NCBI GenBank assembly: GCA_031285945.1
Contig: JAITVF010000080.1
Span: 1-15,502, forward strand
Direction: 5' to 3'
DNA from: Oscillospiraceae bacterium
GTDB lineage: Bacteria > Bacillota > Clostridia > Oscillospirales > Ruminococcaceae
Length of the DNA: 15,502 nt
Position numbers and translations under genes: made by a program. Below the pieces are notes generated by a model. It did no database searches, was not told the origin of the DNA, and saw nothing but the letters and a program-made list of their open reading frames with translations. Of the stretch, positions 1,403 to 11,829 are shown piece after piece; positions within the stretch are counted from its first letter, which is position 1; each line of letters starts with the position of its first letter.

Positions 1403-2245
1403 TTATACTACTTCATCCCACCGCGTCGCACGGCTTACCTGCAATTCCGGAAGCTTTGCCCCTTTTACGCCGCCTATCCCGGCAAAGGCCGCTGTTATAT
1501 GCTCTTGTTCGCCCTGTAGGGCCAGCACCACAGCGCCTTCGGCGCCACCAAGTCCCCCCGCCGCGATTACACAAGATTTTACGCCATACAAAAGCGAAAT
1601 CGCGTCTGTTTCGTTTATAATTTTTCCGTCCACGGGGTAAAGCCCGCAGGGCAGACCCATTGCCAGCTCCGCCGTGCGTCCGGCCGCGTGGCACGCCTCT
1701 TTTACAGAGCCGGGAATAAGCTTTTCGTACCCCGCGGGCAAAATTATGTTAAAATTTTTATTGCGCCGCGCCGACAGTACCCGCCCTATAGTCCCGCCAC
1801 CGCCGGCGGGGTTGGCAAACAGTACTCCGGCGTTGCCCTGGGCATCCACCGCGTTTACGCCCTTTACATAGACGTCATTCTCGCCCATGCCGTCAAGAAT
1901 CTCGCCGAGCGGCGCGGCTTGCTGAAGAACTCCGCGCTTAAACACCCACGTCTGCCTCGACACCTTTCGCGGGTCACGAGAATCTTTTCCCCCTCCGCGC
2001 GCTCTTATCATTTCTTCGGCCTCGCGGGAACCGGTAAGGCCGCTTGGGGCAATAACGCCGCACACCCAAAGGCCCTCCGGCCTGCAACCCGTCAGCTCTT
2101 CAAAAATAAAGCAGGTGCTGCTGCTGGGGTGCAGCGCCAGAATCCCTTCTTCAAGGGAAAGCCGCACCTCCGGAAGCTTTAAAACGGCATGCGCTATAAG
2201 CTTTTTAGATTCTGTAGGCGTAAGTACTATTTGGGCTTGGGCCAT
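1403..2245 (-). CDS. conserved hypothetical protein, glycine-rich motifs
   Basis: A 280-residue, probably cytoplasmic protein without signal peptide or membrane segments. I recognise it as a protein type seen in anaerobes but know no assigned function. Two glycine-rich blocks stand out: ANPAGGGGTIGRVL near residues 143-156 and AAGGLGGAEGAV near 228-239, which could be phosphate- or nucleotide-binding loops. MPCGLYP-like and DVYVKGVNA segments are other likely conserved spots. ATG start at 2245 follows AGGAGGG at 7-base spacing. It is the last gene of the leftward arm, 129 bases behind the CitMHS transporter with a palindromic element in the gap, so it may be co-transcribed at reduced level. 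Its position suggests a role in the same organic-acid pathway; this is inference from context only. Confidence 0.7.
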   Translation of the reverse strand: MAQAQIVLTPTESKKLIAHAVLKLPEVRLSLEEGILALHPSSSTCFIFEELTGCRPEGLWVCGVIAPSGLTGSREAEEMIRARGGGKDSRDPRKVSRQTWVFKRGVLQQAAPLGEILDGMGENDVYVKGVNAVDAQGNAGVLFANPAGGGGTIGRVLSARRNKNFNIILPAGYEKLIPGSVKEACHAAGRTAELAMGLPCGLYPVDGKIINETDAISLLYGVKSCVIAAGGLGGAEGAVVLALQGEQEHITAAFAGIGGVKGAKLPELQVSRATRWDEVV

Positions 2246-7487: not shown

Positions 7488-8828
7488 TTGATTCAGACAA
7501 AGACCAAATGGTACCTGCCGCGCCTGGTGCGCGGAATGTTCGGTGTGCATATTAAGTACTTTATCCCCATTGCGTTAATGGTGCTTGTGGCGGCGCGTTT
7601 TAACATGCTGCCCCCCGGATTTGTAGGCATGATAGCTATACTAATGGCGGCGGGCGGGCTGCTGTCGTGGCTGGGGTCTACGCTGCCGCTCCTGCGCGAG
7701 GTAGGCGGTCACCTGCTGCTGCCGCTGTTTGGCTCTACCCTGCTTTACCGCACGGGTATTCTGCCCGAATTTGCCGCCGAAAGCAGCAAGTTCCTTATGG
7801 ACGGCGGCTTCCAGATGGTGTTTGTCACGGCGGTGCTGGTAGGGTCCATTTTGGCAATGGACCGTAAGATGCTGCTGGCAAGCGTGGTGCGGTACGTTCC
7901 CGTTTTAATAATTTCGCAGCTTTGCGCCCTGGCCTGCGCGTTTTTGGCCGCCATGCTTACCGGCACCAGCCTTTACGACGCAATCTTTTTTATTGCCGCG
8001 CCTTGCATGACAGGCGGCACAAGCGGCGCTATAGCTACGCTGCCCGCCCTGTATTCGCAGGTGTTGGGTCAGGACGTCAGCTCTATTGGCGGTACTATGC
8101 TGGCCGTTGCCATGATAGGAACTTATCTTGCTACCGCCCTTGTTATTGTCATGAGAGTTCTGGCCGATAAGCTCCCGGGGCTTATGGGCAACGGCAACGG
8201 CCAAATACTTCAGCGCGAAAGCGAAGCCCTTAAAAAGGCCCGCGAAAATATGGCTACCTACGAGGATTCATCGGCCGATTATTCGCAGCTGGGCGCGGGC
8301 ATTTTCGTTTCGGCAGCCATTATGGTGCTGGGGTCTGTTCTTTCCAGCGTAATCCCGCAGATAATTTATGTGGCAATGGCCATTATCGTCTGCATTGTTC
8401 TAAAAGGCACCGGCCTGCTGCCCGACGAAATCTGCAAAGCCACCCATTATTGGTCTCAGTTTGCCATTAAGAACATTGTTGTCGTACTGGCAACGGCGGT
8501 GGGGCTTAGCTCTTCTGGCGGGACCTCGCTCTCTTCGGTGCTCAACGCCGGCACTATTATAATTATTCTTATTACTTTTATAGGCGCTATTGCGGGCGCT
8601 ATGATCGGCAGCAAGCTGCTGGGGCTCTACCGCTACGAAGGGGCGCTCACAGCCGCCATGTGCGCCTGCAATATCGGGGCCTCGGGCGATATACAGATGC
8701 TCGCCATAGCCGACCGGCTCGAGCTGCTGGCCTTTGCCACCATTTCTACCCGCATAGGCGGCGCGCTGATGCTTATAGAGATCAGCATTATTTTCCCTAT
8801 CGTGTGTAAAGCCATGGGCATTATATAA
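7488..8828 (+). CDS. 2-hydroxycarboxylate transporter family protein (CitS/MleP/CitP-like)
   Basis: A 446-residue inner-membrane secondary carrier of the 2HCT family, which moves citrate, malate or lactate with sodium or protons or by exchange. Two re-entrant-loop regions typical of the family are visible: PCMTGGTSGAIATLPALYSQ (about 171-190) and CNIGASGDIQMLAIADRLEL (about 401-420), followed by the very characteristic ATISTRIGGALML, corresponding to the substrate-binding SSRLGGG/ATRIGGA segment of CitS. About eleven membrane segments are predicted by eye. The start is TTG at 7488, seven bases after GAGGAGG (7474-7480); the ATG at 7483 is followed at once by a stop in its frame. It leads the rightward arm and is followed after 77 bases by the selenoprotein. 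The loops read GGTSG and GASG rather than the usual GGxG forms, so specificity may differ. Confidence 0.87.
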   Translation: MIQTKTKWYLPRLVRGMFGVHIKYFIPIALMVLVAARFNMLPPGFVGMIAILMAAGGLLSWLGSTLPLLREVGGHLLLPLFGSTLLYRTGILPEFAAESSKFLMDGGFQMVFVTAVLVGSILAMDRKMLLASVVRYVPVLIISQLCALACAFLAAMLTGTSLYDAIFFIAAPCMTGGTSGAIATLPALYSQVLGQDVSSIGGTMLAVAMIGTYLATALVIVMRVLADKLPGLMGNGNGQILQRESEALKKARENMATYEDSSADYSQLGAGIFVSAAIMVLGSVLSSVIPQIIYVAMAIIVCIVLKGTGLLPDEICKATHYWSQFAIKNIVVVLATAVGLSSSGGTSLSSVLNAGTIIIILITFIGAIAGAMIGSKLLGLYRYEGALTAAMCACNIGASGDIQMLAIADRLELLAFATISTRIGGALMLIEISIIFPIVCKAMGII

Positions 8829-8833
8829 CACAG

Positions 8834-8884
8834 CTAATTACTAAAACGCTAATTACTAAAACGCTAATTACTAAAAAGCTAATA
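8834..8884 (+). repeat. 15-base tandem repeat, three and a half units
   Basis: CTAATTACTAAAACG occurs at 8834-8848 and 8849-8863, with one variant unit (final AAG) at 8864-8878 and a partial unit to 8884. It fills most of the gap between the transporter stop and the ribosome site of the selenoprotein gene. Such AT-rich direct repeats can arise by slippage; they would keep the mRNA unstructured ahead of the next gene. Confidence 0.85.
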
Positions 8885-8905
8885 ATAGAAAGGAGTCTTA
8901 CTGCT

Positions 8906-10639
8906 ATGTCTAACTACAACGTTGTCTGGCCGCTTGGTAAGCTGGGCGTCCAAAAATCCTCACTCGCGCCCCGCCTGCCCGACCTGAACGGCAAGACTAT
9001 CTGCGAGCTGTCCCACATGTCCTACCGGGGGGACGATATATTCCCCGCGCTGAGGGTTGCGCTAAAAAAACGTTATCCCGATATTAAATTCGTCACATAC
9101 GAAACTTTTGGCAACTTCCGTGACCCGCGGGTTAACGGATATGAGCTCGAAAAGCACCCCGGGCTTAAGGAGCTGCTAGAAAAAGAAGGCTGCGACGCCA
9201 TTATTGCCGGGGTAGCGGCTTGAGGGGCCTGTACACCCGCCGTGTTGCGGGTATCGGCCGCCGTTGAGCGTTGCGGTTTCCCCACTGCTTCAATTGTTAT
9301 TTCTGGGTTTATGCAGCAAGGCAAGCTGGTAGCCAAAAGCCAGGGCATGCCCGGACTTGCCATAGCGGAGTATCCCGGCACTATGATGACGGATTCTATG
9401 GAACAGCTGGTCGAAAAAGTCGAAACCGCCCTAATGGAAAACGTCATCCGCTCGCTAACCGCTGCACCGGCGCAAGAGACACAGGAGCCGGAGAGCGCCG
9501 AGCCAGAAAAGCGAGATGTTATCTTCCGGGGAGATCTCGACGCTGTCAACGATTATTTTTACGAGCGCCTGTGGACCGACGGGCTCCCCATTGTTCCGCC
9601 AACCGCCGAAAAGATAGAAGCGTTCCTAAAATTTACCGAGCGCTCTCCCGACGAAATTATAAGCCTGTTGCCCCACGAGCAGCGTGAAGCGACCGTTTGG
9701 AACGTTGCCGTCAACGGCGTCATGGCCGGGTGCCGGCCCGAGTATATGCCTGTTCTGCTCGGAATAGCCGACGCGATTTCCGATCCTGTATTCCAGACCA
9801 GAGACGTAGGCAGCACTCCGGGATGGGAGCCCTTGGTAATAGTTACGGGGCCAATTACAAAAGAGCTTGATTTTAACTGCGGTCAGGGAATCCTGCGCTT
9901 TGGGCGGCGTGCCAATACCAGCATAGGGCGGTTCTTAAAGCTCTTTTTGCGCAATGTCGCCGGCTTTCGTCTGCCGCCCGGCGTGGGAGATAAAGGCAGC
10001 ATAGGCCAGAGCATGAACGTAGCCATTGCCGAAAACGAAGACGTAGTACAAGAAATAGGCTGGACCCCCTTCAGCGTTGACCACGGCTTTGCCAAGGGCG
10101 ATAACACCGTGACCGTTATGAGCTCGGCATATGTAAGCCCCCCCACCTACAGCGCGGGCAGTACGGCCCTAGAGCACGTGGAAACTATTGCCGAAGGCAT
10201 GGCCCGCAGATCCTGCTCTGCATATGCGGTATGGGGCGTATACTTTACTGTTCTGGCCCCACTGTTTATGATAAGCCCCGCGGTAGCCAGAATCATTGCC
10301 AAGGACGGCTGGTCCAAGGCGGATATAAGCGCCTATATGCACGAAAACATAAAAGAAAAAGCGGCTTATATCGAAAAGCACGGGCGGGAGTTTAACGGCA
10401 AATATCTCGATCTTTGCAAAGAAGTAAACGCGGGCAGGCTGCCCAAGGAATATTGCGAATCCTGCGACCCCGAGCGTCTTATCAAGTCCTTCCCGTCGCC
10501 TGGCTCGGTGCAGATTATAGTCGGCGGCGACCCCGACCGCAACCAGAGCAAGGCGTTTATGCAAAGCGGGGGCATAGGCTACCCCGTTACGCGCAAAATA
10601 GTCCTGCCGGCAGACTGGAAAGACATGCTCGCAAAGTAA
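8906..10639 (+). CDS. UGSC-family selenoprotein with large C-terminal domain
   Basis: One 577-residue protein read through an in-frame TGA at 9221 (residue 106, selenocysteine). The frame is open from ATG 8906 to TAA 10639 with this single interruption, and protein similarity style continues on both sides. The N-terminal domain (about 1-183) carries GVAA-U-G-A-C-T at 102-110, matching the UGSC-type seleno/cysteine motif, followed by an amphipathic helix and CGFPTASIV. Its layout recalls the UxxC site of glycine-reductase GrdB and proline-reductase PrdB, so a reductive or redox role is likely. A Glu/Pro/Ala linker (about 184-203) leads to a C-terminal domain (207-577) of unknown function with VNGVMAGCRPEYMP, GSTPGWEPL, RRANTSIGRFL and a CESC pair (C517, C520). 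AGGAG lies about ten bases before the start. The thioredoxin-reductase-like gene downstream is a plausible electron donor. An in-frame nonsense mutation is the alternative, but the SECIS-like hairpin argues against it. Confidence 0.9.
9221..9223 (+). other. in-frame TGA read as selenocysteine (residue 106)
   Basis: The TGA is in frame with the open reading on both sides and begins the motif U-G-A-C-T, where the UGSC family has selenocysteine or cysteine. The next codons are GGG GCC TGT ACA CCC GCC. The organism uses TGA as a stop elsewhere in the window (for example at 13087), so the code is standard and recoding must be local. Confidence 0.88.
9226..9259 (+). promoter_or_regulatory. bacterial SECIS-like hairpin
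   Basis: Directly after the TGA, GGCC (9226-9229) pairs with GGCC (9256-9259), and ACCCGC (9235-9240) pairs perfectly with GCGGGT (9247-9252), closing a six-base apical loop CGTGTT (9241-9246) that contains a GU. The loop starts 17 bases after the TGA, the distance at which SelB-binding loops occur in bacterial selenoprotein mRNAs such as fdhF. Confidence 0.8.
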
Positions 10640-10733: not shown

Positions 10734-10835
10734 TACTAATCCGCAAATTAAATGCTTTTATGATATTACTCTATTGCTTCCCCCGCCAAAGGCGGGGGAA
10801 GCAATAGAAAGAAGTATTTTAAATGCGGAATAGTA
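10734..10835 (+). repeat. MITE-like palindromic element, copy 2
   Basis: A 102-base element with ends TACTAATCCGC and GCGGAATAGTA (terminal inverted repeats with one mismatch, TA at both edges). The core is a perfect 17-bp inverted repeat, CTATTGCTTCCCCCGCC (10771-10787) and complement (10791-10807), loop AAA. It lies in the gap between the selenoprotein and trxB-like genes, in the same orientation as copy 1 and opposite to copy 3. Confidence 0.88.
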
Positions 10836-10905: not shown

Positions 10906-11829
10906 ATGGAACAAACTATATATGATGTTATTGTAGTCGGCTGCGGGCCTGCGGGGATGACGGCCGCCATATACGCCGCCAGGGCCAACAAGCGTGTATG
11001 TATTATAGAAAAAAGCGTCTTTGGTGGCCAGATCACCCACTCCCCCCTGGTCGAAAACTTCCCGGGGTCGCTGGCTATGAGCGGCAACGACTTTGCCGCG
11101 CGTATGACCGAGCAGGTAATGAGCCTAGACATAGCCGTAGAAATGGGCAATGTAACCGCAATTATCGACCAAGGGCCCGCCAAGCTTCTCGAGACCGAAG
11201 AAGGCTCTAGCTACCGTGGGCGAACGGTTATCTTGGCCACCGGCGCCAAGCACCGCACGCTGGGCCTTCCCGGTGAAGATGAGCTTGAGGGCAACGGCCT
11301 TTATTACTGCGCGGTTTGCGACGGCGCGCTTATGAAAGGCAAGCACGTGGCAGTAATAGGCGGCGGCAACAGTGCGCTGCAAGAGGCCATACTGCTGTCT
11401 GAGCTAGGCGAAAGCGTAACTATTGTTCAAAACCTGCCATGTTACACAGCCGAAATGAAACTGCGCGAAGCAGTTGAAGCCAAGCCAAACACAAGCACGG
11501 TCTTTTCCACCCTGGTTGATGGAGTATTGTTAGAAGAAGGCCGGTTCGCCGGGCTGCGTCTTATACACGCGCAAACCGGCGAAAAAAGCGAGCTTAGATG
11601 TGGCGGCGCCTTTGTCGCCATAGGCATGGCTCCCGAAAACGAAATTTTCGGCACAGTCGCCGCGCTTGACGCGCAGGGTTATTTCGAATCCGGCGAAGAC
11701 TGCACAACCCGTACCGGTGGCGTTTTTATAGCCGGAGATTGCCGCGCAAAGCAAGTGCGGCAGCTCACTACCGCTGTTGCCGACGGCGCGGTAGCGGCGC
11801 TTGCCGCTTGCCGGTTTCTTGGTTTCTAA
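10906..11829 (+). CDS. thioredoxin reductase-like FAD disulfide oxidoreductase
   Basis: A 307-residue cytoplasmic flavoprotein of the TrxB type, the usual length. Seen: FAD dinucleotide motif VGCGPAG (11-17), GGQITHSPLVENFPG (40-54), redox-active CAVCDG (C135, C138), second nucleotide motif GGGNSA (152-157), and the C-terminal FAD motif GGVFIAGDCR near 265-275. The HRRxxxR segment that binds the NADPH 2'-phosphate in classical TrxB is missing: after VTIV the sequence reads QNLPCYTAEMKLRE. The donor may therefore be NADH or reduced ferredoxin, as in clostridial ferredoxin-linked enzymes (inference). ATG 10906 follows GGAGG at six bases. Immediately downstream of the selenoprotein and flanked by inverted palindromic elements, it probably recharges the selenoprotein directly or through a thioredoxin encoded elsewhere. 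Confidence 0.88.
   Translation: MEQTIYDVIVVGCGPAGMTAAIYAARANKRVCIIEKSVFGGQITHSPLVENFPGSLAMSGNDFAARMTEQVMSLDIAVEMGNVTAIIDQGPAKLLETEEGSSYRGRTVILATGAKHRTLGLPGEDELEGNGLYYCAVCDGALMKGKHVAVIGGGNSALQEAILLSELGESVTIVQNLPCYTAEMKLREAVEAKPNTSTVFSTLVDGVLLEEGRFAGLRLIHAQTGEKSELRCGGAFVAIGMAPENEIFGTVAALDAQGYFESGEDCTTRTGGVFIAGDCRAKQVRQLTTAVADGAVAALAACRFLGF

Follow-up and report, generated by a model that had tools for sequence, protein, structure and literature searches.

Selenoproteins of the UGSC family, and a fusion of UGSC to Unknown_1, a conserved but functionally uncharacterised domain, were reported in 2008, when the family ranked fifth by number among the 51 selenoprotein families in a table from an ocean metagenome and was regarded as a thiol oxidoreductase with a likely thioredoxin-like fold (PMC2398784). 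The family is also listed in PMC9312934, PMC5029168, and PMC13188914, the last of which is a 2026 review describing the functions of such selenoprotein families as largely uncharacterised. The gene analysed here belongs to this known kind. It lies in a window of 15,502 nucleotides, the whole stretch of DNA that was examined, from the draft genome (76.6% complete) of an Oscillospiraceae bacterium. The best explanation of the locus, which is probably correct as a whole, is a selenoprotein resembling GrdB, with a C-terminal substrate domain, that would be reduced by NADPH through a protein similar to thioredoxin reductase (TrxB).

The gene is formed by a single reading frame on the forward strand (8906–10639). 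It starts with the ATG at 8906, 10 nt downstream of AAGGAG (8890–8895), a likely ribosome-binding site, passes an in-frame TGA at 9221–9223 followed by GGG GCC TGT, and contains no other stop codon before the TAA at 10637–10639. With TGA read as selenocysteine (Sec, U), the product has 577 residues, and U106 and Cys109 (TGT, 9230–9232) form the ends of the motif UGAC. The translation bears out the initial annotation, which had placed 8906–9223 and 9242–10639 in one frame and had predicted that mechanical calling would split the gene: the list of open reading frames contains a 105-residue piece with an ATG start and a 465-residue piece with a GTG start. The two pieces represent one gene for a 577-residue protein, very probably with Sec at its active site. 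Judged from sequence, 8906–10639 is almost certainly a selenoprotein gene, in which Sec would be inserted at the TGA. A 15-bp direct repeat, GCTAATTACTAAAAC, is present in 3.4 copies at 8833–8883, between the upstream transporter gene and the selenoprotein gene.

The list of reading frames could also be taken to indicate two proteins, one of 105 residues ending at the TGA and one of 465 residues restarted at the GTG at 9242, translationally coupled by GAGGGG (9222–9227), which resembles a ribosome-binding site. However, the cut would fall within the UGSC domain, at a residue that is cysteine in uninterrupted relatives, and relatives share the frame upstream as well as downstream of the TGA. 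Two separate products are thus very improbable.

Residues 6–185 (8921–9460) match the UGSC domain of Pfam (PF24696) with 87.2 bits against a cut-off of 25, and the predicted model of the domain has alternating strands and helices. The proposed membership in the UGSC family holds for this part of the protein, which passes the Pfam cut-off, contains UxxC, and occupies with Sec a position at which U and Cys alternate in the family. It does not hold in full: the motif is UGAC instead of U/C-G-S-C, with U, G, and C kept and A in place of S; the score with the NCBIfam equivalog model NF041046 is 50.7 bits, below its cut-off of 125; and residues 206–577, a fused domain of 372 residues, belong to a second family. 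Other arrangements were observed elsewhere. A 659-residue UGSC fusion (L026, 492–2471) carries CGIC where the window protein has UGAC, appears by eye to have a signal peptide, and lies upstream of a paralogue of the second domain. An Arthrobacter UGSC protein (L041, 6039–6854) has a C-terminal NifU-like domain (27.2 bits, Pfam cut-off 27).

When the whole protein was searched against a genome set with one representative per species, three relatives were found. The protein from the finished chromosome of Geosporobacter ferrireducens is 65% identical and has TGA at the same codon. A metagenome-assembled genome titled Bordetella parapertussis, a name that may well be wrong, encodes a protein of 42% identity with TGA and the motif UGSC, and a betaproteobacterial metagenome-assembled genome encodes UGSC (TGA, motif UGSS) and, downstream, the second domain in two distinct genes. 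The in-frame TGA is not a chance occurrence, because it recurs at the same residue in Geosporobacter and in the 42%-identical protein, and the relatives with Cys are uninterrupted. The family is rare near the source genome, with matches in two of 61 relatives and three of 391 genomes of the class, its own genome counted; the other matches were Met forms, one per search, plus one Cys form among the 391 genomes. A tblastn search of plasmid records matched 24, and the neighbourhoods of 22 were examined (H4 and H5, from further Neorhizobium, were left out). Together with the window, L015, and L023–L027, these give 29 loci, including near copies such as three from Paracoccus and three from Neorhizobium.

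Residue 106 is encoded by TGA in eight of the 29 loci (the window, L023, L024, L025, L036, L045, L046, and L049), is Cys in 16, all of which cross the position without a break, and is Met in four (L015, L027, L035, and L047); in the stretch examined of the remaining locus, L043, no UGSC domain was seen. The alignment of U or Cys with residue 106, which the initial annotation had proposed as a check, is therefore found in 24 loci. In 19 aligned sequences other than Met forms, U/Cys106 is invariant and Cys109 nearly so, with serine in P0124. The protein of L025 has serine in place of the resolving cysteine, which counts against the best explanation. In the Met forms, which are fusion proteins, Met-Gly-Thr-Ser replaces U-G-x-C, with Met106 and Ser109, and part of the family therefore works without a selenol or thiol, which likewise counts against that explanation. 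These four were missed by the in-house UGSC profile and were placed by alignment; the Pfam UGSC model gives them 34.4, 24.6, 28.3, and 24.9 bits (cut-off 25). A gene for an FAD-dependent oxidoreductase adjoins L015 (by Pfam), L035 (annotated), and, by eye, L027, and one for aconitase X adjoins L035 and L047. Relatives lacking the N-terminal domain do exist. They begin near residue 206, not just after residue 112, where a start had been named as evidence against a joined gene, and have a separate UGSC gene alongside in the stretches examined, except at L043.

A TGA differs by one base from the cysteine codons TGC and TGT, and a decayed gene or a sequencing error might be suspected in a draft assembly. 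However, seven other loci share this TGA, among them that of the finished Geosporobacter genome, and the source genome has all four Sec genes. The shared TGA refutes decay or error as far as sequence can, and the probability left to either is negligible.

The source genome encodes selC (68.6 bits, cut-off 47; anticodon TCA, with ARAGORN in agreement), selB (361 bits, cut-off 242), selA (487 bits, cut-off 268), the start of which is lost at a contig end, and selD (355 bits, cut-off 125). The set of genes for which a search had been suggested is thus present, including selB and selC, the lack of which would have spoken against Sec. The SelD gene (L016, 1824–2945, reverse strand) also has a TGA within its frame, at KGAG*ASK. 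Contig C96 of the genome contains a glycine reductase operon, most genes of which were named by eye. Its GrdB scores 653 bits (cut-off 602) when read through a TGA at STUGTCT. GrdA carries the motif CFVU, and the GrdA frame of the operon shows ..TGCTTCGTCTGA... Of five other genomes or records with the TGA form that were searched for selC, four contain it (L023, L024, L025, and L045; 73.6–77.1 bits); it is absent from the 79-kb Acidovorax plasmid (L036), which is uninformative about the chromosome, and from the two Cys-form plasmids searched (L033 and L034). No more than 100 bp separate a TrxB-like gene from selC in Paracoccus ferrooxidans (L058, W02:C1:1313795-1313884) and in the genome of L024 (L062, G447:C138:5667-5757).

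Just 3′ of the UGA, a hairpin with a GUGU loop (9235–9252), enclosed by an outer stem (9226–9259), is a candidate bacterial SECIS element, and the same form is kept in Geosporobacter. The fold of 9221–9260 has −18 kcal/mol and a z-score of −1.19, with 25 of 200 shuffled sequences as good, which is not significant alone. In the segment 10–40 nt from the codon, the six TGA loci compared, in which L045 represents three Paracoccus, average a z-score of −2.1 and −14.0 kcal/mol, versus −0.2 and −6.4 kcal/mol for 16 Cys loci (one-sided p of 0.004 for z and 0.0005 for energy; 0.005 for z after removal of five near copies). The window itself has a z-score of −0.5 in this measure. The fold of L025 sits elsewhere than in the other TGA loci, which counts against the best explanation.

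The C-terminal domain (residues 206–577; 9521–10636) has no Pfam name: no Pfam match was found in the window protein outside the UGSC domain, and none of the 120 matches listed for relatives of the second domain has a Pfam domain. UGSC and the second domain are fused in the proteins of the window, Geosporobacter, L024, Variovorax (L029), and Acidovorax (L036). Haloarchaea, Roseovarius, Paracoccus, Arthrobacter, and others have a gene for each, side by side, with either one first. The 2008 fusion likewise joins UGSC to a conserved domain, and Unknown_1 is probably the same as residues 206–577 (PMC2398784). With a 394-residue relative as the query, E ≤ 0.001 was reached by 7995 of the 8000 candidates scored, which makes the second-domain family a large one. 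This size, and the retention of both domains in the Met/Ser forms, would fit an arrangement in which the C-terminal domain does the catalysis, for instance as a lyase, and UGSC serves as a redox switch or structural partner that is degenerate in the Met forms. The invariance of U/Cys106 in the 19 non-Met sequences argues against such an arrangement, which appears improbable.

Profile comparison makes it very likely that UGSC is related to the domain of GrdB that carries Sec. Alignment of the UGSC profile with a GrdB profile, built from only five sequences, in hhalign gives a probability of 96.4 and an E-value of 1.3e-9, and places U106 on U342; control profile comparisons gave 0.1 and 0.2. With single sequences, the window protein matches PrdB of D-proline reductase with an E-value of 1.9e-4, and that of L025 matches GrdB with 3.3e-4. 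The shared features are a UGxCT motif, the helix that follows it, and a proline-rich end, with Sec aligned on Sec. However, the alignment reaches no further than the final ~100 residues of GrdB, the fused domain is a different one, and the window has no GrdE/PrdA-type partner gene among the neighbours scanned. The window protein scores 20.9 versus 300 bits with the PrdB model, below the cut-off for a GrdB/PrdB enzyme.

Downstream of the selenoprotein gene, a flavoprotein similar to thioredoxin reductase is encoded at 10906–11829 (forward strand) and is the proposed electron donor. It has a pyridine nucleotide-disulphide oxidoreductase domain and the motif CAVC in common with TrxB, but its score with TIGR01292 is 284 bits, below the cut-off of 343, and it is an extra copy. 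The second TrxB-like gene of the source genome, just below the same cut-off, is part of the glycine reductase operon, and the copy at 10906–11829 therefore looks dedicated. The gene is in the same place in Geosporobacter, a member of Clostridia, and a TrxB-like gene with CxxC occurs in 12 of the 29 stretches (the window, L023, L029, L030, L033, L034, L037, L038, L040, L041, L042, and L050), spanning Geosporobacter, Alpha- and Betaproteobacteria, Actinomycetota, and haloarchaea. It was not found in the other 17 stretches, some of which are shorter than 4 kb, and is on the opposite strand in L042; both observations count against the best explanation. The gene is in two pieces in L038, and a thioredoxin gene intervenes in Arthrobacter. 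The genomes or records of 19 loci were searched for TrxB-like genes (all except the window, L015, L026, L027, L035, L038, L046, L048, L049, and L050), with distances entered by hand. Sixteen of these records are plasmids, 10.19 Mb in total, with 16 TrxB-like genes (E ≤ 1e-15), eight of which are less than 5 kb from a UGSC/second-domain pair, versus 0.4 expected (P ~1e-8). The recurrence of this trio makes it reasonably likely that the TrxB-like protein is the partner of UGSC, to which it would pass electrons. Between the two genes in the window lies an inverted repeat (10770–10808) whose 18-nt arms match perfectly and are 3 nt apart, and co-transcription is therefore uncertain, which counts against the best explanation; the repeat may act as an attenuator or represent a small mobile repeat.

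Upstream, a transporter of the 2-hydroxycarboxylate (citrate/malate) type, 2HCT, is encoded at 7488–8828 (forward strand; PF03390, 318 bits). The transporter, fusion, and TrxB-like genes have the same order in Geosporobacter, which also shares with the window genes for AtuA, DUF4387, CitMHS, and a 280-residue protein (1403–2245, reverse strand) without Pfam or NCBIfam matches at E 0.01. Other loci have tripartite tricarboxylate and TRAP transporters, CoA transferases, CoA ester lyase, and aconitase X, and some have no organic-acid genes nearby. The neighbouring genes therefore indicate small carboxylic acids, but no further, and a carboxylic acid is a tentative proposal for the substrate.

The transporters would be bystanders if the selenol were instead a peroxidase or detoxification centre and not a GrdB-like substrate reductase. 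Cys forms are present in haloarchaea, Neorhizobium, and Variovorax, all presumably aerobes, which would suit such a role. The published view of a thiol oxidoreductase with a likely thioredoxin-like fold (PMC2398784) also favours it. The homology to GrdB and the repeated presence of organic-acid genes speak against it, and the strand-helix alternation of the predicted UGSC model, which is not an obvious thioredoxin topology, may do so as well; on balance, that role is unlikely.

In the GrdB-like mechanism preferred here, the UGA at 9221–9223 would be decoded as Sec106 by the cell's own SelA, SelB, SelC, and SelD, aided by the downstream hairpin. The selenol of Sec106 would be the reaction centre, with Cys109 as the resolving thiol, and the substrate would be held by the C-terminal domain or, elsewhere, by the product of the neighbouring gene. 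The oxidised Se–S bond would be reduced by NADPH via the adjacent TrxB-like protein, directly or through thioredoxin. The substrate may be a small hydroxy- or keto-carboxylic acid imported by the neighbouring transporters. Computation shows the gene structure, the conservation of U/Cys106, the Sec genes, the homology to GrdB, and the recurrence of the trio; Sec insertion, the direction of electron flow, the roles of the two domains, and the substrate are what we infer. The protein most likely uses NADPH to reduce a small organic acid through its selenol or thiol, and which acid this is would be a guess.

In the literature searched, with most subscription journals outside its coverage, and as far as the texts were available, no link of UGSC to a TrxB partner or a GrdB domain was found. 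Within those bounds, the relationship of UGSC to the Sec domain of GrdB, the recurring TrxB-like gene beside the UGSC/second-domain pair, and the fixed partner domain of UGSC across bacteria and archaea are new.

Selenoprotein genes of this kind are split or dropped in gene tables. In the PLSDB table, itself incomplete, the gene on Acidovorax plasmid p2-T1 (L036, 5680–7200) is represented only by a 96-residue piece, and that of Paracoccus ferrooxidans (L045, 4378–4947) by two reading frames of 95 and 80 residues. It is possible, if somewhat doubtful, that UGSC, its partner domain, and the dedicated TrxB-like protein constitute a third line of GrdB/PrdB-type reductases that extends over bacteria and archaea, aerobes included. 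Sec or Cys would attack an alpha-substituted carboxylic acid bound to the partner domain, the substituent would leave, and NADPH and the flavoprotein would reset the centre, with no need for the pyruvoyl partner that glycine and proline reductase have. With a link to the catalytic domain of GrdB, a constant partner protein, and a probable reductase, the UGSC proteins become assayable.
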